DNA from: Variovorax sp. CF079
GTDB lineage: Bacteria; Pseudomonadota; Gammaproteobacteria; Burkholderiales; Burkholderiaceae_C
Reading direction: 5' to 3'
Length of the DNA stretch: 64,000 nucleotides
Assembly: GCF_900101545.1 (NCBI RefSeq)
Contig: NZ_FMZU01000004.1
Coordinates: 62,001-126,000, forward strand
Positions 27,949-45,210 of the stretch are shown here, piece after piece (position 1 is the first letter of the stretch; every line of letters begins with the position of its first letter). The position numbers and the translations under genes were made by a program. The notes beneath the pieces were generated by a model. That model worked only from the letters and a program-made list of their open reading frames with translations, made no database searches and was not told the origin of the DNA.

Positions 27949-28010
27949 GTTTCCCTCCTCCTCTGCGGGCGAGCTTAGCTGAACACGCGTCCCCAGGACA
28001 GAGGGCCCAC

Positions 28011-28029
28011 GCCGACTTCAAATGTCTCA
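28011..28029. repeat. Imperfect direct repeat, copy 2
   Basis: GCCGACTTCAAATGTCTCA, matching the copy at 27054-27072 at 17 of 19 positions. It ends 37 bases before the start of the GntR/UTRA regulator gene. Its right part overlaps TGTC-N5-GACA (28023-28035), which could be an operator half-site pair for that regulator. Confidence 0.6.
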
Positions 28030-28065
28030 TTGACAGAACATTAGAACTCCACAAACATTCAGGGC

Positions 28066-28857
28066 ATGTCGCAGATGCCCTTGCCGAAATACCACCAGAT
28101 CTACCTGGTGCTGCGCGAGCAGTTGGATGAAGGGCGTTTCGCCGAAGGCGTGCCGGGCGAGCTGGCGCTGATGGCGCAGTTCGGCGTGGCGCGCGTCACC
28201 GTGCGGCGCGCGCTGGAGCGGCTGTCCACCGAAGGGCTGATCTCGCGCAACCCCGGGCGCCGGACGCGGCCGGTGCCGCCCGTGTCGGCCGCCGAGCCGC
28301 GCGAGAACGAGGGCAGCCAGCGCGCCAATCTGCATGGCCTGCTGGAGAACCTGGTCACCATGGGCCTGCGCACCTCGGTCAAGGTGGTCGATGTCGCCAT
28401 GGTGTCGGCTTCGACGCAGGTGGCCGAGGCGCTGCAGATCCAGCTCGGCGATGCGGTGCAGAAGGCGGTGCGCGTGCGCTCGACGCGCGAGGGGCCGCTC
28501 TCGCACATCACCACCTACGTGCCGGCCGAGGTGGCGCGGCGCTTCGGGCGGCGCGAACTCGCCAAGAAGCCCATCCTCGTGCTGCTGGAAGAGGCGGGCG
28601 TCAAGGTCGGGCGCGCGCACCAGACGATCTCTGCGCGGCTTGCGGACAACGTGCTGGCCGAACACCTCGAAGTCTCCGTCGGCTCGGCGCTGCTGGCCGT
28701 GCGCCGCCTCGTCTACGACGACGCCGATCGGCCGGTGCAGTGGCTGCACGGCTTCTACCGGCCCGACCGCTACACCTACGAGATGCAGTTGTCCCGCGTG
28801 GGCAGCATCGACGCCAAGGTGTGGGTCAGCAAGGATGTGTCAGCCCAGTTCAACTGA
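28066..28857 (+). CDS. GntR-family (HutC/UTRA) transcriptional regulator
   Basis: A 263-residue regulator: GntR winged helix at residues 8-75 (YHQIYLVLREQLDEGRF, LALMAQFGVARVTVRRALERLSTEGLI) followed by the UTRA ligand-binding domain at about 95-245 (KAVRVRSTREGPLSHITTYVPAEVARRF ... LAVRRLVYDDADRPVQWLHGFYRPDRY). It is the first gene of the long operon and lies only 15 bases ahead of the binding-protein gene, so it is probably autoregulated and responds to the compound imported or degraded by the operon. HutC relatives act mostly as repressors. Confidence 0.88.
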   Translation: MSQMPLPKYHQIYLVLREQLDEGRFAEGVPGELALMAQFGVARVTVRRALERLSTEGLISRNPGRRTRPVPPVSAAEPRENEGSQRANLHGLLENLVTMGLRTSVKVVDVAMVSASTQVAEALQIQLGDAVQKAVRVRSTREGPLSHITTYVPAEVARRFGRRELAKKPILVLLEEAGVKVGRAHQTISARLADNVLAEHLEVSVGSALLAVRRLVYDDADRPVQWLHGFYRPDRYTYEMQLSRVGSIDAKVWVSKDVSAQFN

Positions 28858-28872
28858 AAGAGGAAAAGCCCC

Positions 28873-30075
28873 ATGTCGAATCGTCGCCGCTTCATGTCGC
28901 AATCCGCCGCCGTGGCTTCCGCCATCGCATTCCCGCTCGTGGCCGGCGCGCAGCCGAAGCCCGTCAAGGTCGGCGTGCTGCATCCGGTGACCGGCGCGCT
29001 CGCCTATTCGGGCCAGCAATGCCGCCTGGGCGCACAGCTCGCGATCGAGGACATCAACAAGGCCGGCGGCATCAAGTCGCTCGGCGGCGCGCAGATCGAG
29101 GCCCTGCTCGGCGATGCGCAGTCGCAGCCGCAGGCCGGCACGGCGGAGGTCGAGAAGATGAACGAGGCCGGCGTCTCGGCCATCGTCGGCGCCTATGCCT
29201 CGGCCATCTGCCTCGCGACCACGCAGGCCGCGGCCAAGTACAACCTGCCGCACGTGGTGGATGTGGGCGTGGCCGACCAGATCGTCGAGCGCGGCCTGAA
29301 GAACACCTTTCGCTTCGGCCCCGGCTACAAGAAGTCGACCGAGGTCGCGATGGCCAATCTGCTGGTGCTCAACAAGGCCGCGGGCAATCCGGCCAAGACG
29401 GTGATGATCATCCACGAGGAGTCGCTGTTCGGCGCCGGCACGGCGGCGCTGCTGTCGCGCGAGCTGCCGGGCTATGGCTTCGACGTGAAGGAAGTGGTGA
29501 AGCACGCGAATCCGACGCGCGACTTCAACAACATCGTGCTGCGCATGAAGTCGGTCAACCCGGACATCGTGATCCCGGCCAACTACTACAACGAGTACGC
29601 GCTCCTGGTGCGCACCATGCAGCAGCAGAAGGTCAGTCCCAAGGCGATCTTCTCGGTGCTGGGCGGCGCGGCATCGAGCTACAAGTTCGTGAAGGAGTTT
29701 CCGGACGCGGCCAACGGCATCATCGACTGCAACCACTGGTTCAACCCGAAGGACAAGCGCTCGCAGGAACTGAAGAAGCGGGTCGAGGCCAAGGGCCAGT
29801 TCTTCAGCTACGAGGTGTTCATGACCTATACCGCGATGTGGCTGTTGGCCGATGCGCTGGAGCGTGCCAGGTCGGCCGAGCGCGCTGCCATCATCGATGC
29901 GCTGGAGAAGAGCACCTTCTCGAATCACATCATGCCGTATGGCCCGACGAAATTCACGAACGGCCAGAACGAGGGCGCGCAGCCGCTGATGACGCAGGTG
30001 GTGAAGAACGACATCAAGGTGATCATTCCGCGCGACTACCGCGAGGTGGATCCCGTGTTCCCGCTCAAGGCATGA
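28873..30075 (+). CDS. ABC transporter substrate-binding protein, branched-chain/amide type (LivJ/UrtA-like)
   Basis: A 400-residue periplasmic binding protein. The N-terminus SNRRRFMSQSA followed by a hydrophobic stretch and AGAQ is a likely twin-arginine signal. The mature part begins KVGVLHPVTGALAYSGQQ, the standard opening of type I periplasmic binding proteins of the LivJ/UrtA/AmiC group, and has the typical two-lobe pattern (IVGAYASAICLATTQAA, RFGPGYKKSTE, MTYTAMWLLADALE). The ligand may be an amide, amino acid or organic acid. It directly precedes the permease genes. Confidence 0.9.
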   Translation: MSNRRRFMSQSAAVASAIAFPLVAGAQPKPVKVGVLHPVTGALAYSGQQCRLGAQLAIEDINKAGGIKSLGGAQIEALLGDAQSQPQAGTAEVEKMNEAGVSAIVGAYASAICLATTQAAAKYNLPHVVDVGVADQIVERGLKNTFRFGPGYKKSTEVAMANLLVLNKAAGNPAKTVMIIHEESLFGAGTAALLSRELPGYGFDVKEVVKHANPTRDFNNIVLRMKSVNPDIVIPANYYNEYALLVRTMQQQKVSPKAIFSVLGGAASSYKFVKEFPDAANGIIDCNHWFNPKDKRSQELKKRVEAKGQFFSYEVFMTYTAMWLLADALERARSAERAAIIDALEKSTFSNHIMPYGPTKFTNGQNEGAQPLMTQVVKNDIKVIIPRDYREVDPVFPLKA

Positions 30076-30087
30076 GCACCATCTCTC

Positions 30088-30134
30088 GTTCCCTCCCCTC
30101 CCGGGGGAGGGCTAGGGTGGGGGCTGCGGGCCTG
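30088..30134. repeat. GC-rich palindromic intergenic element (REP-like)
   Basis: Between the binding-protein and permease genes, CCCTCCCC at 30091-30098 pairs with GGGGAGGG at 30104-30111, followed by CTAGGGTGGGGGC. This is the layout of short extragenic palindromes that occur in many copies in Comamonadaceae genomes. It could stabilise the upstream mRNA or allow a higher level of the binding protein than of the permeases. Confidence 0.5.
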
Positions 30135-30166
30135 TCCATCGGCGTGCATCTTCGAGACGCCTGACC

Positions 30167-31039
30167 ATGCTCGACTTCGGCATTCTCTTTCCCTCCGTCC
30201 TCAACGGCCTCACCACCGGCGCGGTCTATGCGCTGATCGCGCTCGGCCTCACGCTGATCTACGGCGTGCTGCACATCATCAACTTCGCGCACGGTGCCTG
30301 CCTGATGCTGGCGCTGTACGCGGTGTACTTCCTCAAGGAGCGCTGGGGCGTCGACCCCTACCTGGCGCTGCCGATCATCGTGCCGGGCATGTTCGCGCTC
30401 GGCTACGCGCTGCAGCGCATCGTGATCAACCGCGCGGGCCACGGCAAGGACGAGAACATCCTGCTCGCCACGCTGGGCATCGCGATCGTGATGGAGAACC
30501 TCGCGCTGATCTTCTTCAAGTCCGACACGCGCAACATCGACACCGCCTATTCGCTCAGCACGGTGGCCATCGGGCCCGCGATGATCGCGGTGCCCAAGTT
30601 GGTGGCCTTCGCGGGCGCGCTGGTGGTGTCGGCACTGCTGTTCTGGATCATGGGCCGTACCGACCTGGGCCGCGCGATCCGCGCGGTGGCCAAGGAAAAG
30701 GAAGGCGCCAAGCTCATGGGCATCGACGTCGACCATGTCTACGCGATGAGCTTCGGCATCGGCCTGGCCTGCCTGGGCGCGGCCGCGTGCTTCCTGCTGC
30801 CGGCCTACTACGTCAACCCGCAGGTGGGCAGCGGCTTCGTGCTGGTGGCCTTCACCATCGTCGTGCTCGGCGGCATGGGCAGCTTCGTCGGCGCGCTCCT
30901 CGGCGGCTTCCTGGTCGGGGTGGTGGAGTCGCTGGGCGGGCTCTACCTCGGCGAGTCGCTGGGGCAGATCGGCATCTTCGCGATCTTCATCGGCGTCGTG
31001 CTGTTCCGGCCCGAAGGCATGTTCGGAGCGAGGGCATGA
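30167..31039 (+). CDS. Branched-chain-type ABC transporter permease, LivH-like
   Basis: A 290-residue inner-membrane permease with about eight hydrophobic segments. LNGLTTGAVYALIALGLTLIYGVLHIINFAHGACLML is the diagnostic LivH opening, and GRAIRAVAKEKEGAKLMGID is the cytoplasmic coupling loop that contacts the ATPases. It would form a heterodimer with the LivM-like protein encoded next. Start codons and overlaps show an operon. Confidence 0.93.
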   Translation: MLDFGILFPSVLNGLTTGAVYALIALGLTLIYGVLHIINFAHGACLMLALYAVYFLKERWGVDPYLALPIIVPGMFALGYALQRIVINRAGHGKDENILLATLGIAIVMENLALIFFKSDTRNIDTAYSLSTVAIGPAMIAVPKLVAFAGALVVSALLFWIMGRTDLGRAIRAVAKEKEGAKLMGIDVDHVYAMSFGIGLACLGAAACFLLPAYYVNPQVGSGFVLVAFTIVVLGGMGSFVGALLGGFLVGVVESLGGLYLGESLGQIGIFAIFIGVVLFRPEGMFGARA

Positions 31040-32008
31040 GCGCAGGCAACCGGCAACTCGCCCTCATTGCGCTGTTCGCGGTGCTCGTGGCCTGCGTGCC
31101 GCTGGTCACGGCGTCCGGCACCACGCTCAACTTCGTGATGATGGCGCTCTATGCCACGCTCATTGCGCAGGCCTGGAACATCCTCGGCGGCTTTGGCGGG
31201 CAGTTCTCCTTCGGCCATGCGCTCTTCTTCGGCACCGGCGCCTACATCCAGGCCATCGCGCAGCTGCAGGGCGGCATCAACGCCTGGGTCGCGCTGCCGC
31301 TCGCGGTGGCGGGCGCGGCGCTGGTGGGGCTCTTCGTCGGCGCGCTGAGCTTCCGCTACGGACTCAAGGGTTCCTACTTCGCGCTGGTCACGCTGGCTTT
31401 CGCGGAGGCGTTCCGCATCCTCGCGCTGTCGGTGCCTTTCACCGGCGGCGGCGTGGGCTTGATGGTGCCGCTGCGCGAGTCCGCCGCCAACCTGCAGTTC
31501 GCCTCGCGCAGCGGCTACCTGTGGCTGGTGCTGGGCTTCGTCACGGCCGCGCTCATCGTCACCTGGTGGCTGCGCAACAGCCGCTTCGGCGCCTGCCTGC
31601 AGGCGGTGCGCGACAACGAGGATGCGGCGCGCGCAGTGGGCGTGAACCCCTTCAACGTCAAGCTCGCGGCCATCGGCATCTCGGGCGCCTTCATGGGCGC
31701 GGCCGGCGCGTTCTACGTGCAGGTGTTCCAGTACATCGACCCCGGCATCGCCTACGGCCCCGCGACCTCGGTCGAGGCGCTGGTCGCGGCCATCGTCGGC
31801 GGCATGGGCACGCTGTGGGGGCCGGTGCTGGGCGCGCTCGTGCTGCACGTGCTGTCGGACTTCACGCGCAACCTGTTCGGCGAGCTCCCGGGCATCAACA
31901 TGGTGATCTACGGCGTGGTGCTGGTGCTGATCGTGATCTTCGTGCCGCGCGGCATCGCGGGCATCGGCCTGTCGGCACGGCAGCTCTGGGCCGGGAAGGG
32001 AGGCCGCC

Positions 32009-32016
<8 letters not shown>
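31036..32016 (+). CDS. Branched-chain-type ABC transporter permease, LivM-like
   Basis: A 326-residue membrane protein whose ATG overlaps the stop of the LivH-like gene. LIAQAWNILGGFGGQFSFGHALFFGTGAY is the LivM signature and RFGACLQAVRDNEDAARAVGVNPFNVKL the coupling loop. About nine membrane segments are visible. It pairs with the LivH-like permease. Confidence 0.93.
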
Positions 32017-32760
<744 letters not shown>

Positions 32761-32764
<4 letters not shown>

Positions 32765-33471
32765 CGGTCCTGCTCGACATCAAGGAGTTGCGCGGCGGCT
32801 ACGGTCGCGTCGAAGTGCTGCGCGGGGTCGACCTGCAGGTAAATGCCGGCGAGATGGTCGCGCTCTTGGGCAGCAACGGCGCCGGCAAGTCCACGCTCAA
32901 CAAGGTGGTCTGCGGCCTCTGCCCGGCCTGGGCCGGCACGGTGCGCTTCGACGGGCAGGACCTGAGCGGCGCCCACTACCGCGAGGTGGTGCGCGCCGGG
33001 CTGATCCAGGTGCCCGAGGGCCGCAAGGTGTTCCCCAACCTCAGCGTGCTGGAGAACCTCGAGCTCGGTTCCTTCACGCGCGCCCGCGAACGCCGCGCGC
33101 TCAACCTGGAGCGCGTGTTCGCGATCTTCCCGCGCCTGAAGGAGCGCCTGCGCCAGCACGCCGGCACGATGAGCGGCGGCGAGCAGCAGATGCTCGCGAT
33201 CGGCCGCGGCCTCATGGCCGAGCCGGTGCTGCTGATCCTCGACGAGCCCTCGCTGGGCCTGTCGCCGCTGCTGGTGGAGGAGATGTTCTCGCTCGTTCGC
33301 CAACTGCGCGACGACGGCCTTGCGGTGCTGCTGGTCGAGCAGAACGTGGGCCAGTCGCTGGAGATCGCGGATCGTGCGTACGTGCTGGAGAACGGCAGCG
33401 TGCGCTTCTCGGGCTTGCCGAAGGACTTGCTGGCAAGTGACGACTTGCGGCGCGCTTACCTGGGCCTTTGA
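32761..33471 (+). CDS. ABC transporter ATPase, LivF-like
   Basis: A 236-residue ATPase with Walker A GSNGAGKST (37-45), VPEGRKVFPNLSVLENLELG, signature MSGGEQQMLAIGRGLM and Walker B LLILDEPSLGLSP. It overlaps the LivG-like gene at ATGA. Together the two ATPases would drive the LivHM-like channel. Confidence 0.93.
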
Positions 33472-33496
33472 TCCGGCCGCGCCAGAAGGAGACAAC

Positions 33497-34453
33497 ATGA
33501 AACGTCGTGACATCCTCATTGCACCCATGGCGGCGGCATTCGCCGGCGGCGTGCGCGCCCAGATCGGCGGCGCGCCGGTGCGCATCCTGGTCGGCGCGCC
33601 GGCCGGCGGCTCCACCGACACGCTGGCGCGCACGCTGGCGGCCAGCATGGGGCCGGTGCTCGGCCGCACGGTGATCGTCGAGAACCGGCCGGGTGCCGGC
33701 GGCAACATCGCGGCGGACGCGGTGGCCAAGGCGGCGCCGGACGGCAGCACGCTCCTGATGAGCTTCACCAGCCATGCGATCAATGCCACGCTCTACCCGT
33801 CGCTGCCCTTCGATCCGGTGAAGGACTTCACGGCGCTGACCTGCGTCGCGACCGCGCCTTCCATCCTGGTCGCGCATCCATCGGTGCCGGCCAACAACGT
33901 GCGCGAACTGATCGCGCTGGCCAAGAGCAAGCCGGGGCAGCTCAACTTCGCGATCGGCGGCATTGGCTCCTCGCTGCACATGGCGGGCGACGCCTTCAAG
34001 ATGCAGTCGGGCGCCTTCATCGTGAACATCCCCTACCGCGGCACCGCGCCGGCCGTGCAGGACGTGCTCGCGGGCCAGGTGCAGCTGATGTTCGCGGCGG
34101 TCGGCAACGTGCAGGCGCATATCAAGGCCGGCAAGCTGAAGGCGCTGGGCGTGACGAGCGCGAAGCGCCTGCCCGCCTTTCCCGAGGTGCCTGCGATCGC
34201 CGAGGTGCTGCCGGGCTACGAGTCGAGCGCCTGGTTCGGGCTCTTCGGGCCGGGCAACATGCCAGCCGACGTCGCGCGCCGCACCAGCGATGCGGCGCGC
34301 CAGGCGATTGCGCAACCGGAGATGCGCAAGCGCCTGGAGACCGAGGGCGCGATCCCGGTCGGCAACGCGCCCGAGCAGTTCTCGGCTTTCGTGCAGAGCG
34401 AGATCACGCGCTGGGCCAAGGTGGTCAAGTTCTCCGGAGCGAGGCCGGAATGA
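33497..34453 (+). CDS. Bug/TctC-family tripartite tricarboxylate transporter receptor, first copy
   Basis: A 318-residue periplasmic protein with an MKRRDILIAP start and AFAGGVRAQ signal-peptidase site. PVRILVGAPAGGSTDTLAR and ENRPGAGGNIAADAVAKAAPDGSTLLM are the Bug-family motifs that hold a carboxylate ligand through two ordered waters. No TctA or TctB gene is nearby, as is usual for the many Bug proteins in Burkholderiales, so it may act as a sensor or lend ligand to a distant transporter. A GGAGA ribosome site supports the start. It is coupled to the next gene through ATGA. Confidence 0.9.
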   Translation: MKRRDILIAPMAAAFAGGVRAQIGGAPVRILVGAPAGGSTDTLARTLAASMGPVLGRTVIVENRPGAGGNIAADAVAKAAPDGSTLLMSFTSHAINATLYPSLPFDPVKDFTALTCVATAPSILVAHPSVPANNVRELIALAKSKPGQLNFAIGGIGSSLHMAGDAFKMQSGAFIVNIPYRGTAPAVQDVLAGQVQLMFAAVGNVQAHIKAGKLKALGVTSAKRLPAFPEVPAIAEVLPGYESSAWFGLFGPGNMPADVARRTSDAARQAIAQPEMRKRLETEGAIPVGNAPEQFSAFVQSEITRWAKVVKFSGARPE

Positions 34454-35727
34454 GCGCCGCTGCACGCGCGCCGCAGACGCTGGCGCAGAAGCTCATTGCC
34501 CGCGCCTGCGGGCGCGCGCAGGTGGCGGTGGGCGAGGTCGTGACCTGCGCGGTCGATCTCGCGATGTTCCACGACTCATCGGGCCCGCGCCGGCTGCAGC
34601 CGATGCTCGAGGAACTGGGCGCACAGGTCTGGGACAAGTCGCGCATCGTGCTGGTGATGGACCATTACGTGCCCGAGCGCGACGAGGACTCGCGCCGCAT
34701 CGTGCGCATCGCGCGCGACTGGGCGCGCGACCAGAAGCTGCCGCATGTCTACGACAGCCAGGGCATCTGCCACGTGGTGGTGCCGCAGCACGGGCACATC
34801 CGCCCCGGCATGCTGTGCGTGGGCGGCGATTCGCATTCGCCCACCGGCGGCGCGTTCGGTGCCTACATGTTCGGCGTCGGCAGCACCGAGATGCTCGGCG
34901 TGGTGGTCACCGGTGAGATCTGGCTGCGCGTGCCCGAGACCATCCGCATGTGGTGGGATGGCGCGCTGCCTGCCGGCGTGACGGCCAAGGACATGATGCT
35001 CTCCATGATCGGCCGCTTCGGCATGAACGGCGGGCGCTACCAGGCGGTCGAGTTCTGCGGTCCGGCCGTGACCGCGCTGTCGATGCAGGAACGCATGACG
35101 CTGTCGAACATGAGCGCCGAGCTCGGCGCGCAGGCCGGGCTGATCGCGCCGGACGCGACCACCGCCGCCTACCTCGCCGAGGCCGGCGCGCCGCCGGTGG
35201 ACATCGCGCCGTGGTTCACTGATGAAGGTGCCACGTTCGAGCAGCACCGCTTCGACGCCGCCGCGCTGGAGCCGCAGGTCGCGGCGCCGCACAGCCCGGC
35301 CAATGCCCACGGCGTGAGCCGCGATGCCGGCATGCCGGTCGACGTGGCCTACATCGGCGCCTGCACCGGCGCCAAGCTCGACGACCTGCGCGCCGCCGCG
35401 CAGGTGCTGCGCGGTCACAAGGTGGCGGCCGGGGTGCGCCTGATCGTCGCGCCGGCCAGCCTGCAGGACCAGGAGCAGGCGCGCGAAGAGGGCGTGCTGC
35501 AGGTGCTGATGGACGCCGGCGCCGAACTCTTCCCGACCGCCTGCGGCGCGTGCTCCGGCTATGGCGATCCGATGGGCGACGACATCACCGTGATCTCGAC
35601 CACCGCGCGCAACTTCAAGGGGCGCATGGGTTCGGCGACGGCGCAGGTGTACCTCGGTTCGCCCTATACCGTGGCCGCTTCGGCGCTGCGCGGGTGCGTC
35701 ACGGACCCGCGGGAGATCCTGCAATGA
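34450..35727 (+). CDS. Aconitase/isopropylmalate-isomerase family hydratase, large subunit
   Basis: A 425-residue protein of the LeuC/aconitase family. The iron-sulphur ligands are Cys305 (IGACTGAK), Cys365 and Cys368 (ACGACSGYG); HDSSGPRR and GGDSHSPTGGAFGAYMFGVGSTE mark the substrate region. The small-subunit gene follows immediately. Such two-subunit enzymes hydrate or isomerise unsaturated di- and tricarboxylates: isopropylmalate, citraconate/maleate, homoaconitate, or 2,3-dimethylmaleate. True LeuC would be encoded with LeuB, which is not here. A catabolic role with the downstream lyase is more likely. Confidence 0.89.
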   Translation: MSAAARAPQTLAQKLIARACGRAQVAVGEVVTCAVDLAMFHDSSGPRRLQPMLEELGAQVWDKSRIVLVMDHYVPERDEDSRRIVRIARDWARDQKLPHVYDSQGICHVVVPQHGHIRPGMLCVGGDSHSPTGGAFGAYMFGVGSTEMLGVVVTGEIWLRVPETIRMWWDGALPAGVTAKDMMLSMIGRFGMNGGRYQAVEFCGPAVTALSMQERMTLSNMSAELGAQAGLIAPDATTAAYLAEAGAPPVDIAPWFTDEGATFEQHRFDAAALEPQVAAPHSPANAHGVSRDAGMPVDVAYIGACTGAKLDDLRAAAQVLRGHKVAAGVRLIVAPASLQDQEQAREEGVLQVLMDAGAELFPTACGACSGYGDPMGDDITVISTTARNFKGRMGSATAQVYLGSPYTVAASALRGCVTDPREILQ

Positions 35728-36221
35728 CTCACCGCGTGTGGCGCCTGGGCGCTGATATCGACACCGACGCGCTGGCCCCCGGCCATGCGATGAAGCACGG
35801 CATTGAGACCATCGCGCAGCATTGCCTCGAAGCCGTGCGCCCCGAGTTCGCGCGTGAGGTGCGGCGCGGCGACGTGATCGTGGCCGGCCCGAACTTCGGC
35901 ATCGGCTCTTCGCGCGAGCAGGCCGCGGCGGTGCTGGTGCAGCTGGGCGTGGCGGCGGTGATCGCACCCTCGTACAGCGGGCTTTACTTCCGCAACGCCT
36001 TCAACGTGGGGCTGCTGCTGCTCACTTGCGCGGAAGCCGAATCGCTGCAGGAAGGCGAGAGGGTAGAGCTCGATGTAGAGACGCCGGCTGTGCGCACCGC
36101 CGAGGGCCGCACGCTGGCCTGCGAGCCGGTGCCGGCTTTCCTCATGGACATGGCGCGCGCGGGCGGCTTGTTGAAGCAGCTGCGCCTGCGTCTCGCCACC
36201 GGGGACGCGCATGCGCGCTGA
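35724..36221 (+). CDS. Aconitase/isopropylmalate-isomerase family hydratase, small subunit
   Basis: A 165-residue swivelling subunit of the LeuD type. It opens with RLGADIDTDALAPGHAM and has the phosphate/carboxylate loop NFGIGSSREQAAAVLVQLG and SYSGLYFRNAFNVGLLLL. It is coupled through ATGA to the large subunit gene and overlaps the next gene by eleven bases. Together with the large subunit it forms the hydratase; substrate specificity cannot be read off, but residues after IGSSREQ differ from housekeeping LeuD and would be the place to look. Confidence 0.89.
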   Translation: MTHRVWRLGADIDTDALAPGHAMKHGIETIAQHCLEAVRPEFAREVRRGDVIVAGPNFGIGSSREQAAAVLVQLGVAAVIAPSYSGLYFRNAFNVGLLLLTCAEAESLQEGERVELDVETPAVRTAEGRTLACEPVPAFLMDMARAGGLLKQLRLRLATGDAHAR

Positions 36222-37584: not shown

Positions 37585-38549
37585 AACGCCTGCGCCATCT
37601 CGCGACCACGCTCCTCCTTAGCCTGCCGCTTCTCGCCGCGGCCCAGGCCGACGACTTCCCGAACAAGTCGATCCGCATCGTCGTGCCCTTCCCGGCTGGC
37701 GGCGCCACCGACGCCGCGGCGCGCCTGGTCGCCACCAAGATGAGCGAGAAGTGGAACCAGCCGGTGGTGGTGGACAACCGCGCGGGCGCCGGCGGCAATG
37801 TCGGCTCCGACTTCGTCGCCAAGTCCGCGCCCGACGGCTACACGCTGGTGATGGGCGTGACCGGATCGCACGCGATCAACACCTCGCTCTACAGCAAGAT
37901 GCCCTACGACCCGGTGGCCGACTTCGTCGCCATCAGCCAGGTCGCGGTGGTGCCCAACGTGCTGGTGGTGCACCCCTCGGTGCCGGTCAACAACCTGGCC
38001 GAGCTGGTGGCGCTCGCCAGGCGCGAGCCCGGCAAGCTCAACTACGCATCGCTCGGCAACGGCACGGCCGCGCACCTGGGCATGGAGATGCTCAAGTCCG
38101 CCGCCGGCATCGAGATCACGCATGTGCCCTACAAGGGCAGTGCGCCCGCGGTCTCCGACCTGCTGGCCGGTCAGGTGCAGATGATGGTCGATGGCCTGCC
38201 TTCGGCGCTGCCGCACGTGAAGGCCGGCAAGCTGCGCGCCATTGCGCTGACCAGCCTGCACCGCGCGCCGGCACTGCCCGAGCTGCCGACCATCGCCGAG
38301 AGCTACCCGGGCTTCTACGCTGACGCGTGGTCGGGCCTGTTCGCACCCAAGGGCACGCCGAAGCCGGTGGTGGACAAGCTCTCGGCCGAGGTGCAGCGCA
38401 TCCTGAAGCTGCCCGAGGTGCGCGAGAAGCTGGCCGCGCTGGGCGCCGAGCCGGTGGGCTCCACGCAGGTCCAGTTTGCGGCGCATGTGAAGCGCGAAAT
38501 CGATAAGTGGGGCAAGGTCGTGAAGACCAGCGGAGCGAAAGTGGATTGA
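37581..38549 (+). CDS. Bug/TctC-family tripartite tricarboxylate transporter receptor, second copy
   Basis: A 322-residue periplasmic receptor with signal peptide ending in AAAQA. SIRIVVPFPAGGATDAAARLVA and DNRAGAGGNVGSDFVAKSAPDGYTLVM are the Bug motifs. It is only distantly similar to the first copy four kilobases upstream, so the two probably bind different ligands or arose by separate acquisition. Its ATG overlaps the MmgE/PrpD stop and the hydantoinase B gene starts two bases after it ends, so it belongs to the operon. Confidence 0.91.
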   Translation: MKRLRHLATTLLLSLPLLAAAQADDFPNKSIRIVVPFPAGGATDAAARLVATKMSEKWNQPVVVDNRAGAGGNVGSDFVAKSAPDGYTLVMGVTGSHAINTSLYSKMPYDPVADFVAISQVAVVPNVLVVHPSVPVNNLAELVALARREPGKLNYASLGNGTAAHLGMEMLKSAAGIEITHVPYKGSAPAVSDLLAGQVQMMVDGLPSALPHVKAGKLRAIALTSLHRAPALPELPTIAESYPGFYADAWSGLFAPKGTPKPVVDKLSAEVQRILKLPEVREKLAALGAEPVGSTQVQFAAHVKREIDKWGKVVKTSGAKVD

Positions 38550-38551
38550 CC

Positions 38552-40237
38552 ATGAACGACGCACTCGACCCCGTTACCCTCGCCGTGCTGCGCGGCCGCC
38601 TCGAACAGGTGGCCGACGAGATGGACGCGACGCTCTACCGCAGCGCCTTCAACCCGATCATCGCGGAGGCCCACGACGCCTGCCACGGCCTCTACGACGC
38701 GGTGAGCGGCGACACGCTGGTGCAGGGCAAGTCGGGGCTGCCGGTGTTCGTCGGCGCCATGGCCTTCGCGGTGCGCATGACCGCGGCCGCGGCGGCGCCG
38801 CGCGGCGGTATGGTCGACGGCGACATCTGGATCAGCAATGACGCCTACGACGGCGGCACGCACGCCAACGACTTCAAGCTGGTGCGGCCCTTCTTCCGCA
38901 GCGGCAAGCTCTATTGCTACATGGCCTCGGCCGCGCACTGGCACGACGTCGGCGGCGCGGTGCCCGGCAACTACAACCCGGCGGCCACCGAGTGCTGGCA
39001 GGAGGCGGTGCAGATCCCACCGGTGCGCATCGTGCGCGGCGGCGAGCTCGACGCCGACGTGCTGGCGATCCTGCGCGCCAACACGCGCCTGCCCGAAAGC
39101 CTGTGGGGCGACTTGAACGGCCAGCTGGCCGCGCTGGAGCTCGGTACGAAGCGGCTGCACGGACTGCTCGACGAGTACGGCGATGCGCTGGTGCTGCAGG
39201 CCATGGGCGAGCTGCGCAGCCGCGCGCTCAAGCTGATGCGCGCGCACATCGCCTCGCTGCCCGACGGCCGCTACAGCTTCGAGGACCTGCTCGACAACGA
39301 CGGCATCACCAGCGAGCCGCTCACCATCGCGCTCGACATGACGGTGGCCGGCGAGCGGCTCCTGCTCGACTTCTCGCGCAGCTCGCCACAGTGCGCGGGG
39401 CCGGTCAACATCTCGCGCGCCACGGCGGTCGCGGCCTGCTACGTCGCGCTCAAGCACCTGTTCCCCGATGTGCCGGCCAATGCCGGTGTGCTCGACGCGG
39501 TGGACTTCGAGATCCCCGACCGGCTGGTGATCAGCGCCGAGCGGCCACGTCCGATGGGCGGCTACACCGAGACCATCCTGCGCATGATCGACGTGATCTT
39601 CAGCGCCGCGGCGCAGGCCGATCCGGCGCGCGCCGTCGCGCAGGCCTACGGCACCATCAATGCGCTGTCGATCGCGGGCCACCGCAGCGACGCGGGGCGC
39701 GAGGGGCAGCGCTGGGTGATGTTCAGCTTCTTCGGCGGCGGGCATGGCGGGCACTCGGGCGGCGACGGCCTCTCGCACGGCAACGCGCCGATCTCCACCG
39801 CCACCATCCCGCCGCTGGAGATCCTCGAGGCCGCCTACCCGGTGCGCTTCACCGAATGGTCGCTGCGCGCCGACTCGGGCGGCGACGGGCAGTTCCGCGG
39901 CGGCCTCGGCGCGGTCTACGAGATCGAGCTGCTCGAGAAGGATGCCGAGGTCTTCGTCTTCGGCGAGCGCGGCAGCTCGCCGCCCAAGGGCATCGCGGGC
40001 GGCGGCGCGGGTGCGCTCAATGTCTTTCGCTACGAGAACGAAGGCGCCTGGCACGTGCCGCCGATGGTGTCGAAGATGCGCGGCATCCGGCTCGCGCGCG
40101 GCGAACGCGTGCGGCTCGAAACGCCCGGCGGCGGCGGCTGGGGCGATGCGGCGGAACGCCGGCCAGATCAGCGCGCGCAGGACAGGGCGATGGGCTACGT
40201 GAGCGTCGAGCCCGCGAAGAAGAAGGATCAGCAATGA
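38552..40237 (+). CDS. Hydantoinase B / oxoprolinase subunit B family protein
   Basis: A 561-residue HyuB-type subunit. DPVTLAVLRGRLEQVADEMDATLYRSAFNPII is the standard opening; SNDAYDGGTHANDFKLVRPFF, HWHDVGG and GGGHGGHSGGDGLSHGN supply the metal and substrate region; the C-terminus carries ETPGGGGWGD. With subunit A it uses ATP to open a cyclic amide such as a hydantoin, 5-oxoproline or caprolactam, or to carboxylate a ketone in related families. The absence of a carboxylase gamma subunit favours cyclic-amide opening. The A subunit is encoded next (ATGA). Confidence 0.88.
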   Translation: MNDALDPVTLAVLRGRLEQVADEMDATLYRSAFNPIIAEAHDACHGLYDAVSGDTLVQGKSGLPVFVGAMAFAVRMTAAAAAPRGGMVDGDIWISNDAYDGGTHANDFKLVRPFFRSGKLYCYMASAAHWHDVGGAVPGNYNPAATECWQEAVQIPPVRIVRGGELDADVLAILRANTRLPESLWGDLNGQLAALELGTKRLHGLLDEYGDALVLQAMGELRSRALKLMRAHIASLPDGRYSFEDLLDNDGITSEPLTIALDMTVAGERLLLDFSRSSPQCAGPVNISRATAVAACYVALKHLFPDVPANAGVLDAVDFEIPDRLVISAERPRPMGGYTETILRMIDVIFSAAAQADPARAVAQAYGTINALSIAGHRSDAGREGQRWVMFSFFGGGHGGHSGGDGLSHGNAPISTATIPPLEILEAAYPVRFTEWSLRADSGGDGQFRGGLGAVYEIELLEKDAEVFVFGERGSSPPKGIAGGGAGALNVFRYENEGAWHVPPMVSKMRGIRLARGERVRLETPGGGGWGDAAERRPDQRAQDRAMGYVSVEPAKKKDQQ

Positions 40238-42309
40238 CAGCAGCAATCAAATCCGCTGAAGGCGGCTCGCTGGTCGTCGGCGTCGACGTCGGCGGCACCT
40301 TCACCGACCTCTTCGTGCTCGACGAGTCGGCCGGCACGGCGCGCATCGTCAAGGTGCCTTCCACCCGCGGCGAGGAAGCGCGCGGCTTCATGAACGGCGT
40401 GGCGCGCGTGACCGATTCGGCCGCGGCCATCGCCACCATCGTGCACGGCACCACGGTCGGCACCAACGCGCTGCTCGAACGCAAGGTGGCGAAAACCGGC
40501 ATCCTCACCACGCGCGGCTTCCGCGACGTGCTGGAAATGCGCCGCCGCGACCGGCCGCAGACCTGGGGCCTGCGCGGCAGCTTCACGCCGGTGGTGCCGC
40601 GCAACCTGCGACGCGAGGTCGACGAGCGCGTGCTGGCCGACGGCACGCTGCACACGCCGGTCGACCTCGACCAAGTGCGCGTTGAAGCGCGCGCGCTGTT
40701 GGCCGAGGGCTGCGAGGCCGTGTGCGTGTTCTTCATCAACACCTATGCGAACCCGGAGAACGAGCGTCTCGCCGTCGCCGCGGTGCGCGAGATCTGGCCC
40801 AACGCGCACGTGACCTCGGCCAGCGAGGTGCTGCCCGAGATCCGCGAGTTCGAGCGCTGCTCCACCGCCACGCTCAATGCCGCGCTGCAGCCGGTGGTCG
40901 GCAGCTACCTCGAACGGCTCGAATCCGATCTGCGCGGCCAGGGCTTCGCCGGCGAGCTGCTGGTGGTGCAGAGCAACGGCGGCGTGATGTCGCGCGCCAC
41001 CGCGAGCGAGCTGCCGGTGCGCACTGCGCTCTCGGGCCCGGCGGCCGGCGTGATCGCCTGCGCCGAGATCGCGCGCGCGGCGGGCTTCCCCAACGCGATC
41101 ACCGGCGACATGGGCGGCACCTCCTTCGACGTCTCGCTGGTGGCGAACGGCGAGGCGGCGCTGGCGGCGCAGACCGCGATCGAGTTTGGCATGGTGATCC
41201 GCTCGCCGATGATCCAGATCGAGACCATCGGCGCCGGCGGCGGCTCGATCGCCTCGGTGGATGCGAGCGGCATGCTGCAGGTCGGGCCCGAGTCGGCCGG
41301 CAGCGTTCCCGGCCCGGCCTGCTACGGCCGCGGCAACATGCGCCCGACGGTGACCGATGCCAACGTGCTGCTGGGCCGCATTGCGGCCGACCGGCCGCTC
41401 GGCGGCGGCCTGCTGGCGGCGCTCGACGCGGAGAAGTCCTATCAGGCCATCGAGGCGCACGTGGCGAAGCCGCTGGGGCTCGACGTCCATGCGGCGGCCG
41501 AGGCCATCCTTACGGTCGCCAACGCGCGCATGGCCGGCGCGATCCGGCTGGTGTCGATCGAGCGCGGCCACGACCCGCGCCGCTTCGCCTACATGCCCTT
41601 CGGCGGCGGCGGCGCCCTGCACGTGTGCGCGATGATGCGCGAGGTCGGCGTGGCCACCGGCATCGTGCCGCGCTATCCCGGCGTCACTTCGGCGCTGGGC
41701 TGCGTGATCGCCGACATGCGGCACGACGCGGTGCAGACGCTCAATCGGCCGCTGGCCGATCTCGACGTCGATGCCATGCGGCAGCGCATCGCGCAGCTGG
41801 CCGAGACCTGCCAGCGGCGCCTCGATTCCGCTGGCGTGCGCTTCGACGAGGTGCGCGAGATCGTCGCGCTCGACATGCTCTATGCGGGCCAGACCCATAC
41901 GCTGCCGGTGCCGTTGCCGCCGGGCAGCGGCGCGACGCTCACGCGAGAGACGATCCGCGCCGCTTTCGAAGCGAGCTACGAGGCCACCTTCGGCCGCGTG
42001 CTCGACGGCATCGGCATCCGCGTGATGAACCTGCGCTACGCGCGCATCGGCGTGCGGCCCAAGTTCGACCTGGCCGTGCTGGCGCCGGAAGGCGAGGGCA
42101 GCATCGCCCCGCTGGGCACGCAGCTCGTGTTCCACCAAGGGCGCTGGCACGAGGCGCAGCGCTTCGCGCGCCTCGACCTGCCGGTGGGCGCGCGCGTCGA
42201 AGGGCCTGCGATCCTGGAGCAGGTCGACACCACCGTGTGGCTCGAGCCCGGCTTTCAGGCTGAGGTCGATGCCTTTGGCAACCTGCTGGTGAGTTCACAT
42301 GGACGCTGA
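40234..42309 (+). CDS. Hydantoinase A / oxoprolinase subunit A family protein
   Basis: A 691-residue HyuA-type subunit with the ASKHA ATP-binding fold: GVDVGGTFTDLFVLDE, HGTTVGTNALLERK, GDMGGTSFDVSLV and GAGGGSIASVD. It is expected to phosphorylate the carbonyl oxygen of the substrate, which subunit B then hydrolyses. The order B then A is reversed from 5-oxoprolinase operons. The next gene starts eleven bases before its stop, which shows tight coupling. Confidence 0.9.
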   Translation: MTAAIKSAEGGSLVVGVDVGGTFTDLFVLDESAGTARIVKVPSTRGEEARGFMNGVARVTDSAAAIATIVHGTTVGTNALLERKVAKTGILTTRGFRDVLEMRRRDRPQTWGLRGSFTPVVPRNLRREVDERVLADGTLHTPVDLDQVRVEARALLAEGCEAVCVFFINTYANPENERLAVAAVREIWPNAHVTSASEVLPEIREFERCSTATLNAALQPVVGSYLERLESDLRGQGFAGELLVVQSNGGVMSRATASELPVRTALSGPAAGVIACAEIARAAGFPNAITGDMGGTSFDVSLVANGEAALAAQTAIEFGMVIRSPMIQIETIGAGGGSIASVDASGMLQVGPESAGSVPGPACYGRGNMRPTVTDANVLLGRIAADRPLGGGLLAALDAEKSYQAIEAHVAKPLGLDVHAAAEAILTVANARMAGAIRLVSIERGHDPRRFAYMPFGGGGALHVCAMMREVGVATGIVPRYPGVTSALGCVIADMRHDAVQTLNRPLADLDVDAMRQRIAQLAETCQRRLDSAGVRFDEVREIVALDMLYAGQTHTLPVPLPPGSGATLTRETIRAAFEASYEATFGRVLDGIGIRVMNLRYARIGVRPKFDLAVLAPEGEGSIAPLGTQLVFHQGRWHEAQRFARLDLPVGARVEGPAILEQVDTTVWLEPGFQAEVDAFGNLLVSSHGR

Positions 42310-42913
42310 TACACGCATTGCGGCTGCGAAGACCGCGCTGGTCATCATCGACCTGCAGAACGACTTCCTCGACCCGAAGGGTGCCTATGCGCGCGGCGGC
42401 GACACCAACCCACCTGCCTTGCTGCTGCCGGCGCGTGTGGCCGGCGTGGCGCGTGCGCTCAAGAGCGCCGGCGGTATGGTGGTCGCGAGCCAGTTCACGC
42501 TGTGGCCCGATGCGGCCGGCGAGCCCATGGTGTCGCCGCACCTGAAGGCGCTGCGGCCCTACCTGACGAAGGGCGACTTCGCGCCGGGCAGCTGGGGGCA
42601 GGCGAACGTCGACGAACTGGCAGGACTCATCGACGTGACGGTCAGCAAGGTCGCCTACTCGGCCTTCTTCAACACCCAGCTCGACTGGGTGCTGCGCCGC
42701 GCCGGCATCGATACCGTGGCCGTCTGCGGCATCGTGACCAACGGCGGCGTCGCCAGCACGGTGCGCGACGCCCACATGCGCGACTACCGCACGCTGGTGC
42801 TGGCCGACGGCTGCGCGGCCTTCGGCGAGGAGCGGCACCAGACCTCGCTGGCCGACATGCGCAACGTGGCCGAAGTCACCGACTGCGCGGCCTTCATCCA
42901 GTCGCTGGCATGA
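42299..42913 (+). CDS. Isochorismatase-fold protein lacking the catalytic cysteine
   Basis: A 204-residue isochorismatase-like hydrolase. Two of the three usual catalytic residues are present: Asp22 in LQNDF and Lys117 in VSKVAYSAF. The nucleophile normally found in TNVCVxST is absent: the segment reads TNGGVAST, with Gly150 at the Cys position. True isochorismatases also lack the Cys and act on a vinyl ether through the Asp, whereas amidases of the fold need it. So it may not be an amidase, although the neighbouring hydantoinase would predict a carbamoylase. It lies between HyuA and an FAD enzyme, overlapping both. Confidence 0.84.
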   Translation: MDADTRIAAAKTALVIIDLQNDFLDPKGAYARGGDTNPPALLLPARVAGVARALKSAGGMVVASQFTLWPDAAGEPMVSPHLKALRPYLTKGDFAPGSWGQANVDELAGLIDVTVSKVAYSAFFNTQLDWVLRRAGIDTVAVCGIVTNGGVASTVRDAHMRDYRTLVLADGCAAFGEERHQTSLADMRNVAEVTDCAAFIQSLA

Positions 42914-44325
42914 CGTTGCAGCGAAACATCCGTCGCGCATCGGCCATCGATGCGGAGGCGCACACCGGCGTCGCCATCGTCGGCGCCGGCGCCTGCGGCC
43001 TCACCGCGGCGCTGATGCTGCACGACGCGGGCATCGACTGCGTGCTGCTCGAACGCGATGCGACGCCCAGTGGATCGACCGCGCTCTCTTCGGGCTTCAT
43101 CCCCGCGCCGAGCACCCGCGTGCAGCGCGCGCAGGGCGTGCACGATGACAGCGCCGAACGCTTCGCCGCCGACATCCAGGCCAAGGCCCACGGCCGCGCC
43201 GCGCCCGCGCTGGTGCGGGCTTATGCCGAAGCCATCGGTCCCGCGCTCGACGCATTGCAGGCGCGGCACGGGCTCGGTTGGATCCTGCTCGACGGCTTTC
43301 TCTATCCGGGCCACAGCGCCCATCGCATGCATGCGCTGCCGCAGAAGACCGGCGCTGCGCTCATGGCCGCGCTGCAGGCGGCGGTAGGGACGGCAGGCAT
43401 CCCGGTGCTTACCCAGGCACTGGTCGAAACGCTGTGCTTCGATGAAGAGGACCGTGCGATCGGAATCGGCTACCGCCGGCCCGACGGCCGCGAAGAATTG
43501 CTCGGCTGCGATGCGCTGCTGCTGGCCTGCAACGGCTTCGGCGGCAACGCGGAGATGGTGCGCGCGCTGCTGCCCGAGATGGCGGATGCCGCTTTCGGCG
43601 GCCACACCGGCAACGATGGCAGCGCCATCCTCTGGGGCCGGGCACTGGGCGCGCGGCTGCGCGACCTCGGCGGTTACCAGGGACACGGCTCCTGGGTCAC
43701 GCCGCAGGGCGCGCTGATGTCCTGGGCCGTGATGATGGAAGGCGGCGTGCAGATCAACCGCGAAGGGCGGCGCTTCCATGACGAGACCCAGGGCTATTCC
43801 GAGGCCGCGGTGAAGGTGCTCGCGCAGCCGGGCGGCGTCGCCTGGAATGTGTTCGATGCGCCGCTGCTCGCGCTGGCGCACGAGTTCCCGGATTTCTGCG
43901 AGGCCGAGGCGGCCGGCGCGCTGCGCCGCTGCGACACGGTGGCGCAGCTCGCCGCGTGCATCGGCTGCGACGTGCCCACCTTGCAAGCCACGCTCGATGC
44001 CTTGCTCGCCATCGGTCCGCAACCCGACGGCCGCGTGTTCAAGCGCGGACTGGCCGCGCCGTACTTCGCGGTCAAGGTGTCGGGCGCGCTGTTCCACACT
44101 CAGGGCGGCCTCGACATCGGGCCGGACATGCGCGTGCTGCGCGAGGACGGCACGGCGTTGCCCAACCTGATCGCGGCGGGCGGCGCAGCCGGCGGCGTTT
44201 CGGGCGATGCGGTGTGGGGCTATCTCTCGGGCAACGGCCTCCTGAGTGCCGTGGCCGGCGGCGCCATCGCGGCGCGCACGGCGGCGGCGCTTGTCAAGGC
44301 AGGAAGGAACCAACATGGCGAATGA
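42910..44325 (+). CDS. FAD-dependent dehydrogenase, fumarate-reductase flavoprotein fold
   Basis: A 471-residue FAD_binding_2 enzyme. The FAD site begins VAIVGAGACGLTAALMLHDAG, with LLERD at the end of the second strand and GSTALSSGFIPAPSTRVQRAQG over the isoalloxazine. LLACNGFGGN and the C-terminal LIAAGGAAGGVSGDAVWGYLSGNGLLSAV close the fold. The group contains fumarate reductases, 3-ketosteroid dehydrogenases and the tricarballylate dehydrogenase TcuA. In this operon a dehydrogenation of a saturated di- or tricarboxylate to an alkene, to be hydrated by the aconitase-like enzyme, is reasonable. Coupled to its upstream neighbour by ATGA. Confidence 0.86.
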   Translation: MTLQRNIRRASAIDAEAHTGVAIVGAGACGLTAALMLHDAGIDCVLLERDATPSGSTALSSGFIPAPSTRVQRAQGVHDDSAERFAADIQAKAHGRAAPALVRAYAEAIGPALDALQARHGLGWILLDGFLYPGHSAHRMHALPQKTGAALMAALQAAVGTAGIPVLTQALVETLCFDEEDRAIGIGYRRPDGREELLGCDALLLACNGFGGNAEMVRALLPEMADAAFGGHTGNDGSAILWGRALGARLRDLGGYQGHGSWVTPQGALMSWAVMMEGGVQINREGRRFHDETQGYSEAAVKVLAQPGGVAWNVFDAPLLALAHEFPDFCEAEAAGALRRCDTVAQLAACIGCDVPTLQATLDALLAIGPQPDGRVFKRGLAAPYFAVKVSGALFHTQGGLDIGPDMRVLREDGTALPNLIAAGGAAGGVSGDAVWGYLSGNGLLSAVAGGAIAARTAAALVKAGRNQHGE

Positions 44326-45181
44326 CACTTCATTCAAGGAACGGCTCGCGTCCAGCGAGATCGTGCTCGCACCCGGCGTCTACGACGCCGTGAGCGCGCT
44401 GGTGGCCGAGCAGGCCGGCTTCGAGGCGCTCTACCTCTCGGGCGCTTCGATCGCCTACACGCGGCTGGGCCGTTCGGACGTCGGCCTCACCACCTTCACC
44501 GAGGTGGCCGACACACTGGCGCGCATCTGCGAGCGCGTGAACCTGCCGGTGATCATCGATGCCGACACCGGCTTCGGCAATGCGCTCAACACGCAGCGCA
44601 CGGTGCGCGGCTTCGAGCGCGCCGGCGCGGCCATGGTGCAGATCGAGGACCAGGGCTTTCCCAAGCGCTGCGGTCACCTGGACGGAAAGACGGTCGTGCC
44701 TGCGCGCGAAATGACGGGCAAGCTCAAGGCTGCGCTGGATGCGCGTGCCTCGGCCGAGACGCTGATCCTCGCGCGCACCGACGCCGTCGCCGTCGAGGGG
44801 CTGGACGCGGCGCTCGACCGCGCCGAGGCGTACCTGGAATGCGGCGTCGATGCGCTCTTCATCGAGGCCTTGCGTTCGCCCGCGCAGATGGAGGCCGCCT
44901 GCAAGCGCTTCGCCCACCGCGTGCCGCTCCTGGCCAATATGGTCGAAGGCGGCAAGACGCCGATTCAGGATGCCGATGCGCTGCAGGCCCACGGCTTTCG
45001 CATCGCGATCTTTCCCGGCGGCACGGCGCGCGCGGTGGTCCACACGCTGCAGGGCTACTACGCGAGCCTCGCGCAGCACCGCACGACCGAGCCATGGCGC
45101 GACCGCATGCTGGACTTCGACGGCCTCAACGAAGTGATCGGCACGCCGGAGCTGATGGCGCTGGGCAAGCGCTACGAATAG
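44315..45181 (+). CDS. PEP mutase / isocitrate lyase family C-C lyase
   Basis: A 288-residue TIM-barrel lyase. APGVYDAVSALVAEQAGFEALYLSGASIAYTRLG is the usual opening; VIIDADTGFGN gives the Mg-binding Asp pair; IEDQGFPKRCGHL has the catalytic Cys119 that distinguishes lyases from PEP mutases; LILARTDA and ALFIEALRS follow. Relatives are 2-methylisocitrate lyase, oxaloacetate decarboxylase and 2,3-dimethylmalate lyase, and all form or use a pyruvate- or glyoxylate-type enolate. As last gene of the operon it would make the final cut of a hydroxylated branched carboxylate. A ribosome site AGGAAGGAA overlaps the preceding gene. Confidence 0.9.
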   Translation: MANDTSFKERLASSEIVLAPGVYDAVSALVAEQAGFEALYLSGASIAYTRLGRSDVGLTTFTEVADTLARICERVNLPVIIDADTGFGNALNTQRTVRGFERAGAAMVQIEDQGFPKRCGHLDGKTVVPAREMTGKLKAALDARASAETLILARTDAVAVEGLDAALDRAEAYLECGVDALFIEALRSPAQMEAACKRFAHRVPLLANMVEGGKTPIQDADALQAHGFRIAIFPGGTARAVVHTLQGYYASLAQHRTTEPWRDRMLDFDGLNEVIGTPELMALGKRYE

Positions 45182-45210
45182 GCGCGCATTCACACCGCCC
45201 TCGCGCGGCC

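Follow-up and report, generated by a model that had tools for sequence, protein, structure and literature searches.

A predicted operon of Variovorax couples a conserved FAD enzyme, hydratase and lyase core to interchangeable ring-opener modules: a candidate route for cyclic imide or cyclic amide catabolism

Introduction

Nicotinate fermentation in Eubacterium barkeri runs via an enamidase, 2,3-dimethylmaleate hydratase and dimethylmalate lyase. A stretch of 64,000 nucleotides from Variovorax sp. CF079 (contig NZ_FMZU01000004.1, positions 62,001 to 126,000; hereafter, the window) carries at positions 28066-45181 a tightly packed gene set that recalls this route, in that genes for the presumed opening of an amide ring accompany a LeuCD/DmdAB-type hydratase and a lyase of the phosphoenolpyruvate (PEP)-mutase family (for the enamidase step, see PMC9304392). 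The predicted Variovorax operon departs from the E. barkeri system in that a molybdenum hydroxylase, a reductase, a mutase and an isomerase are all absent, in that its lyase lies nearer to methylisocitrate lyase than to the solved dimethylmalate lyase, and in that a flavin adenine dinucleotide (FAD)-dependent enzyme belongs to its core, usually in the company of an ATP-binding cassette (ABC) importer.

Three further groups of described systems share parts of the gene set. The methylcitrate cycle (PrpD, AcnB/AcnD, PrpB) likewise combines a PrpD-family protein, an aconitase-family hydratase and a PrpB-like lyase; the operon, however, has no methylcitrate synthase and adds a ring-opening module, its lyase falls below the PrpB cut-off, and most related loci have no close PrpD. 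The cyclic imide hydrolase of Pseudomonas putida and HxnM/HxnN of Aspergillus nidulans pair a PuuE-type opener with an amide hydrolase, as do some relatives of the operon, whereas the window itself encodes a two-subunit hydantoinase (HyuAB) and an isochorismatase-fold protein without the catalytic cysteine; it also adds LeuCD and the lyase, which the HxnM/HxnN route is not described as using (PMC9304392). Caprolactamase CapAB and N-methylhydantoinase are two-subunit members of the same hydantoinase A/B family as HyuAB, which nevertheless scores far below the caprolactamase cut-offs.

Searches of the open-licence literature, some of them too loose to tell, returned no description of such an operon or of an imide hydrolase or hydantoinase combined with a lyase of this kind, in agreement with the view of a first-pass annotation, made by a model from the DNA alone, that no described pathway has this combination. 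Here we compare the operon with its relatives and propose, as the reading we moderately favor, that it is a catabolic operon that imports a cyclic imide or related cyclic amide, opens the ring with HyuAB, desaturates the carbon chain with the FAD enzyme, hydrates the product with LeuCD and cleaves it with the lyase.

Results

We assembled 86 loci built around relatives of the FAD enzyme (42910-44325 in the window, on the + strand, as are all genes of the operon). Sixty-seven are core loci, defined as holding the FAD enzyme, LeuC or LeuD (34450-35727 and 35724-36221) and the lyase (44315-45181); part of this core is missing in the other 19. Exactly one ring-opener module accompanies the core in 64 of the 67 core loci, two modules occur together in none, and three have no module. 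The module of the window, comprising the hydantoinase B/oxoprolinase-family subunit HyuB (38552-40237) and the hydantoinase A/oxoprolinase-family subunit HyuA (40234-42309), recurs in 41 core loci, every time with the isochorismatase-fold protein, Iso (42299-42913). Twelve core loci hold an amidohydrolase of allantoinase/hydantoinase type (AllB-type; Amidohydro_1), and eleven hold two polysaccharide deacetylases of PuuE/cyclic-imidase type, mostly together with a cysteine hydrolase. In 58 of 71 loci, the opener and the FAD gene share a strand and lie no more than 400 bp apart.

These modules come from three unrelated families, the hydantoinase A/B family, Amidohydro_1 enzymes of allantoinase/hydantoinase type and PuuE-type polysaccharide deacetylases, and the reaction class common to all three is hydrolysis of a ring C-N bond. 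Relatives of HyuAB open hydantoins, 5-oxoproline or caprolactam at the expense of ATP, and relatives of the AllB-type protein are allantoinases and hydantoinases. The relatives of PuuE include cyclic imidases, among which HxnM is 64.2% identical to a P. putida cyclic imide hydrolase homologue (PMC9304392). The interchangeability of the three families supports the entry by way of a cyclic imide or amide that the first-pass annotation had suggested.

The opener has been replaced repeatedly around the conserved core. On a quick maximum-likelihood tree of 68 of the 71 FAD proteins with a known opener (short or interrupted matches were excluded), the distribution of modules calls for a minimum of eight changes, where the least possible number is two and shuffled labels average 24.4; the well-supported branches alone call for at least four label changes for HyuAB, at least three for the AllB-type and at least three for the PuuE-type module. 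Sister proteins with unlike openers (L015 with HyuAB, L014 with PuuE) are joined at a support of 99, and a Polaromonas protein with HyuAB stands beside two AllB-type genomes at the same support. A whole-genome search of seven genomes for AllB-type and HyuA proteins, with PuuE outside its scope, found HyuA at 77-100% identity and an AllB-type protein never closer than 32% in three of them (the source genome, G000, together with G649 and G138); G323 yielded an AllB-type protein and no HyuA, G477 and G575 only HyuA at 36-38%, and G434 neither protein.

Two loci carry additional genes. In the core locus L110, an AtuA-family protein and an SDR-like open reading frame (ORF) at 4749-6128 precede the regulator, LeuC, FAD and lyase genes, with no known opener, and are possibly a fourth kind of module. 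In the AllB-type locus L100, a 3-oxoacid CoA-transferase subunit, its likely second subunit and a thiolase-domain protein lie between LeuD and the opener (7407-10381).

HyuA (PF05378, PF01968, PF19278) and HyuB (PF02538) contain the Pfam domains expected of both subunits and so belong to the hydantoinase A/B family. Their best NCBIfam models are those of the caprolactamase subunits; identity as CapAB is not supported, the scores of 519 and 276 falling far below the cut-offs of 1000 bits. The top solved relative of HyuA is an N-methylhydantoinase. Iso carries the isochorismatase domain (PF00857) and fold: its predicted model (mean predicted local distance difference test score, pLDDT, of 84) matches biuret, triuret and ureidoacrylate hydrolases as well as maleamate amidase, and its profile score stays below the RutB cut-off. 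In an alignment to RutB, all 43 Iso proteins have glycine at the position of the nucleophilic cysteine (motif TNGGV), and the cysteine of the TNxCV motif of the RutB, NicF and CSHase type is absent from all 43; Iso is therefore not a classical cysteine amidase. Glycine at this position is also found in isochorismatases that cleave vinyl ethers. Iso follows the opener closely among the 86 FAD loci, being present in 43 of 44 HyuA/HyuB loci and in none of the 15 AllB-type or 12 PuuE-type loci. A cousin, IsoCys, occurs in 11 of the 12 PuuE-type loci; eight of these 11 have the motif SGCV.

The same proteins raise the prospect, which we consider unlikely, that the ring is a cyclic ureide such as a substituted hydantoin or a dihydropyrimidine. 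Here the opener would yield a carbamoyl compound, from which hydrolases of the IsoCys type would take off the carbamoyl group, leaving a free acid as the substrate of the FAD enzyme. The resemblance of the openers to allantoinase, hydantoinase and PuuE fits such a substrate, as do the matches of Iso to biuret, triuret and ureidoacrylate hydrolase structures, the best models for Iso and IsoCys (RutB, YecD-like and biuret hydrolase) and the Asp/Glu/hydantoin-racemase-family genes of some variants. A freed amino acid, however, offers no path to LeuCD and a lyase of malate type, the AllB-type loci (0/15) give no match to Iso or IsoCys, and the Iso of HyuAB-type loci has no cysteine.

Turning to the core, LeuC passes the curated cut-offs of TIGR01343 hacA_fam (417.5 against 385.7) and PRK00402 (537.4 against 385), and LeuD passes that of TIGR02087 (157.7 against 108.95), so that by profile score the predicted hydratase subunits fall inside the LeuD/DmdB and homoaconitase-type subfamilies. 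The scores fall short of the homoaconitase equivalog cut-offs (364 against 550, and 131 against 229). A lysine in a loop of LeuD, conserved in 60 of 68 proteins, was dropped as proof of a tricarboxylate substrate because the solved LeuD structure 3h5j has the same lysine.

The lyase (PF13714) scores 178-192 bits against solved methylisocitrate lyases and CPEP mutase and 147 bits against 2,3-dimethylmalate lyase (3fa3), which also ranks under petal death protein among its solved relatives; it does not reach the PrpB equivalog cut-off (TIGR02317, 292.4 against 354.4). All 71 lyases of the FAD loci have the catalytic loop K[RK]CGH (KRCGH, as in the window, in 69 and KKCGH in two), and 68 of the 71 have NMVEGG. 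The pairing of a LeuCD hydratase with a C-C lyase, which had been proposed for this operon, is supported, whereas a dimethylmalate lyase in particular is not what the bit scores indicate.

By their family mechanisms, LeuCD and a K[RK]CGH lyase need a vicinal dicarboxylate, a requirement best fitted by an imide whose five-membered ring derives from a substituted maleic or succinic acid. Simple imides would supply the tricarboxylic acid (TCA) cycle without the help of a lyase, so a branched acid is more probable. Plain succinimide and maleimide were set aside on these grounds, TCA entry needing no lyase. The product of the isonicotinate/citrazinate route is cis-aconitate; as a lead, this route was rejected, given that its product enters the TCA cycle without a lyase, and a strict search of the open-licence literature for it returned no papers.

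The FAD enzyme (PF00890) belongs by domain and fold match to the flavocytochrome c/ketosteroid dehydrogenase superfamily. Its proposed identity as tricarballylate dehydrogenase is not supported, as it scores below both TcuA cut-offs (108.4 against 369 bits and 72.7 against 372.55 bits). A fold search with the predicted model matched urocanate reductase, cyclohexanone dehydrogenase, ketosteroid dehydrogenase and flavocytochrome c3 at scores that span no more than 1.4 Z, and the fold therefore does not choose between a reductase and a dehydrogenase. Two tyrosines, invariant in 11 of 11 proteins, occupy the Arg402 and Arg544 columns of the flavocytochrome alignment, setting the enzyme apart from TcuA, urocanate reductase and the 3-ketosteroid and cyclohexanone dehydrogenases. 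Read by eye from the alignment to 1qo8, the enzyme has Tyr, Trp and Met at the Arg402 and Glu378/Arg381 columns, and a wider alignment, which has no TcuA row, contains neither Arg nor Glu there. The enzyme thus does not show the active-site Arg402 and the Glu378/Arg381 proton path of fumarate reductases of the flavocytochrome c type. The model has pLDDT values below 50 at residues 437-440, so the tyrosine argument rests on the sequence alignment. None of HyuA/HyuB, Iso, the FAD enzyme and the lyase reaches the cut-off of a specific equivalog.

A locus on a Burkholderia plantarii plasmid hints at glutarate as a product. Its genes run on one strand in the order GntR, LeuC, LeuD, FAD, lyase, porin, ETF, ETF, acyl-CoA dehydrogenase and CaiB, with a PuuE pair and a cysteine hydrolase divergent upstream and IS6 and IS481 genes in the flanks. 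The CaiB protein scores 542 on the succinate-glutarate CoA-transferase model, compared with 494 and 517 for the chromosomal CaiB genes that neighbor gcdH in G000 and G649. The acyl-CoA dehydrogenase carries YRSMMSVQSSLVM and NTYEGTHDIHALILGR, which are close to motifs of human glutaryl-CoA dehydrogenase. gcdH is also a neighbor of the operon in two sister genomes of the FAD tree, G323 and G460. Its mere presence was discarded as an argument, since gcdH occurs in 49 of 51 and in 30 of 30 FAD-positive genomes but likewise in 45 of 46 FAD-negative control genomes.

If the lyase releases glutarate, the maleate must carry a carboxyethyl side chain, and with a methyl group on the other maleate carbon this gives the skeleton of hematinic acid. 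A specific form of the imide pathway, which we regard as speculative and improbable, would accordingly import tetrapyrrole imides, namely hematinic acid and the saturated counterpart that the D ring of chlorins yields, and process them to pyruvate and glutarate, the latter passing to glutaryl-CoA dehydrogenase. The FAD enzyme would turn the succinimide into a maleimide, HyuAB or a swapped opener would cut the ring, the disubstituted maleamic acid would lose ammonia, LeuCD would hydrate a methyl-homoaconitate-like acid, and the lyase would yield pyruvate and glutarate. Disubstituted maleamic acids can deamidate spontaneously. Hematinic acid is a fragment of chlorophyll and heme that has been reported from a ten-year-old dried leaf, fossil leaves and lignite sediment (PMC12860425). 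Loose queries of the open-licence literature for growth on hematinic acid or for its degradation gave nothing among their top matches, which is not evidence of absence.

Glutarate would also be the outcome of an N-heterocycle route akin to nicotinate fermentation, in which an unsaturated lactam would arise from a reduced pyridine carboxylate, an enamidase-like opener would turn it into an oxo acid, and glutarate would follow. We think this decidedly unlikely. In Sulfitobacter sp. S190, genes for a molybdenum hydroxylase and 6-hydroxynicotinate reductase lie some 3 kb downstream of the FAD gene, ORFs of L119 (FAD enzyme at 43%, no core genes) resemble molybdenum hydroxylase by eye only, gcdH stands beside three loci, and an enamidase alone can open and deaminate an enamide lactam (PMC9304392), all of which fit the route. 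However, neither the Sulfitobacter pontiacus locus nor any of four further annotated plasmid loci holds such genes, it is not evident what LeuCD would do with these intermediates, and the operon has no B12 mutase. The S190 region (L137, 17197-24266) additionally contains a UPF0280 gene and two genes of amino acid synthesis families.

The remaining catabolic and uptake genes are less constant. A homologue of the MmgE/PrpD-family protein (36211-37584; PF03972, PF19305) at 40% identity or more is present in 17 of the 67 core loci, and homologues of the Bug/TctC receptors 1 (33497-34453) and 2 (37581-38549; both PF03401) at 60% or more in 20 and 15, respectively. GntR occurs in 39, LivH in 47 and GcdH in two of the 67, and PrpD-family genes under the counting limit lie in L126, L135, L136 and L153. 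PrpD and the receptors, which had been treated as equal members of the operon, are by these counts probably accessory, with roles in isomer handling, uptake or sensing.

This variability bears on a pathway for carboxylates, an alkylcitrate or tricarballylate analogue, in which PrpD, LeuCD and the lyase would form a methylcitrate cycle without a synthase and HyuAB would not open a ring. PrpD, hydratase and PrpB-like lyase do recall that cycle, Bug receptors bind carboxylates as a family, three core loci are missing an opener, two Sulfitobacter loci that have no ABC importer carry tripartite ATP-independent periplasmic (TRAP) transporter genes next to LeuCD, and PrpD-family genes below our limit are annotated in Roseomonas and Tistrella loci. 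Yet close PrpD is found in 17/67 and a close Bug receptor in 15-20/67 core loci, against openers in 64/67, and it is difficult to see why else one slot would be filled by three different ring-opening families; we rate this pathway as quite unlikely.

Several loci extend the accessory set. A gene resembling arylmalonate decarboxylase/maleate isomerase adjoins the PrpD relatives of L036, L021 and L023. L153 has at 2559-8450 a second FAD copy with a tautomerase, a TRZ/ATZ-type amidohydrolase, a PrpD-like protein and two Asp/Glu/hydantoin racemase-like proteins, one of them examined by profile scan; together with a similar set in Tistrella mobilis (L135), this suggests a sister pathway.

In the window, the operon begins with a GntR-family regulator with a UTRA ligand domain (28066-28857; PF00392, PF07702), which likely senses the substrate or an intermediate. 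The importer follows, consisting of a LivK-type periplasmic binding protein (28873-30075; PF13458), the LivH-type and LivM-type permeases (30167-31039 and 31036-32016; both PF02653) and the LivG-type and LivF-type ATPases (32009-32764 and 32761-33471; both PF00005). With the genes given above, 16 genes fill 28066-45181, and every type of gene named in the first-pass annotation is present. Neighbors are separated by 15, 91, -4, -8, -4, 25, -4, -4, -11, -4, 2, -4, -11, -4 and -11 bp, that is, they overlap at 11 of 15 junctions and the widest gap is 91 bp; the packing with overlaps that had been described therefore stands, the count of fifteen genes does not. The identical order recurs in nine further loci, eight of which bear the name Variovorax, and in one Polaromonas, and is therefore not due to chance. 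Pattern scans of 27900-45400 were uninformative, giving three terminator-like matches, none intergenic, against 7.1 expected and one promoter-like match against 1.1 expected; a tRNA scan found no tRNA.

Downstream, a gene resembling FAD-dependent halogenases and geranylgeranyl reductases (45211-46575, - strand), below the cut-offs of the listed NCBIfam models, converges on the operon. It is followed on the + strand (46747-55905) by a TetR-like regulator, a gene similar to which adjoins the operon in eight other loci, and by ORFs that by eye resemble genes of fatty-acid oxidation, among them an acyl-CoA dehydrogenase and a thiolase. The source genome measures 6.85 Mb, and the nearest named relatives of the window's PrpD and FAD genes are from Variovorax. 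A second hydantoinase A gene, 37% identical, lies on the same contig outside the window (G000:C27:7204-9285).

Materials and methods

Loci were gathered by two routes, as 57 loci of a genome collection with a PrpD relative and as the surroundings of FAD-enzyme relatives. Searches for the FAD enzyme were positive for 16 of 399 genomes at the level of the order, for 26 of 299 at that of the family, for 4 of 369 at that of the class and for 13 of 398 at that of the phylum (a set overlapping the others), as well as for 54 of 268 genomes from a second family and for 40 plasmid records. Regions were taken from 15 of 18 places in the order set; from 22 of 26 genomes in the family set, the remainder being G000 (the window), G323 (included separately), and G350 and G597 (left out); from three other genomes, at four places, in the class set; from nine of 13 genomes in the phylum set; from 20 of 65 places in the second family, with none from the 21 places below 450 bits; and from six of the 40 plasmid records. 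Betaproteobacterial loci include Variovorax, Polaromonas and Ramlibacter, and named Alphaproteobacterial loci include Azospirillum oryzae, Sulfitobacter pontiacus and Roseomonas haemaphysalidis.

All loci were scored by tblastn matches covering at least 25% of the query and lying no more than 16 kb from the FAD match. Identity limits were 42% for the FAD enzyme, 29% for LeuC, 27% for LeuD, 44% for the lyase, 55% for HyuA, HyuB and IsoCys, 50% for the AllB-type protein and PuuE1, 40% for PuuE2 and PrpD, 45% for Iso and LivH, 60% for Bug and GcdH and 30% for GntR. Homologues under these limits were not counted (for example, an AllB-type protein at 32% and PuuE1 at 34% in L092), and as contig ends cut some loci, the counts are lower bounds. 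The 89 FAD-enzyme rows were reduced to 86 by removing the duplicates L082, L085 and L099.

Discussion

In the pathway we favor, the importer would bring in a cyclic imide that is likely branched, or else a cyclic amide related to it. HyuAB likely opens the ring and the FAD enzyme would desaturate the carbon chain, in an order that may be the reverse; LeuCD would hydrate the resulting substituted maleate, and the lyase would split the substituted malate, giving a 2-oxo acid together with a carboxylate that may be glutarate.

A number of observations weigh against this pathway or parts of it. Loci were sampled through PrpD and FAD similarity, mostly from the better matches, and many rows are closely related. 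Eight of the 86 FAD loci have no match to an opener, to LeuC/LeuD or to the lyase, five of them at 43-47% FAD identity and three (L083, L084 and L086) at 54-56%, and the core loci L104, L105 and L110 have no opener nearby. Iso has no amidase cysteine, and as the 15 AllB-type loci hold no Iso or IsoCys match, the second amide of an imide would there need another amidase or spontaneous loss. The loop lysine of LeuD is not diagnostic of a tricarboxylate. With respect to glutarate, the B. plantarii CaiB protein lies below the curated cut-off (542 against 750), as do those of G000 and G649; NCBIfam ranks the adjacent dehydrogenase as FadE (237), acryloyl-CoA reductase (218) and glutaryl-CoA dehydrogenase (208), all below cut-off; gcdH is nearly universal in the control genomes; and its linkage to the operon was seen in only two of 81 FAD-positive genomes, which are sisters, and in one of six plasmid loci.

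The operon family nonetheless presents a natural experiment in pathway evolution, in which a conserved and widespread core has had its presumed first hydrolytic step rebuilt from three unrelated families. The swapping of openers narrows the substrate to one with a ring C-N bond, which gives a small list of substrates for the many genomes in which these genes are named by family. Enzymes of open specificity are gained as well: the HyuAB pair, its cysteine-less isochorismatase-fold partner and a candidate FAD desaturase. Were the tetrapyrrole route to prove true, the operon would supply a missing bacterial step in the recycling of chlorophyll and heme fragments that persist in leaves and sediments.

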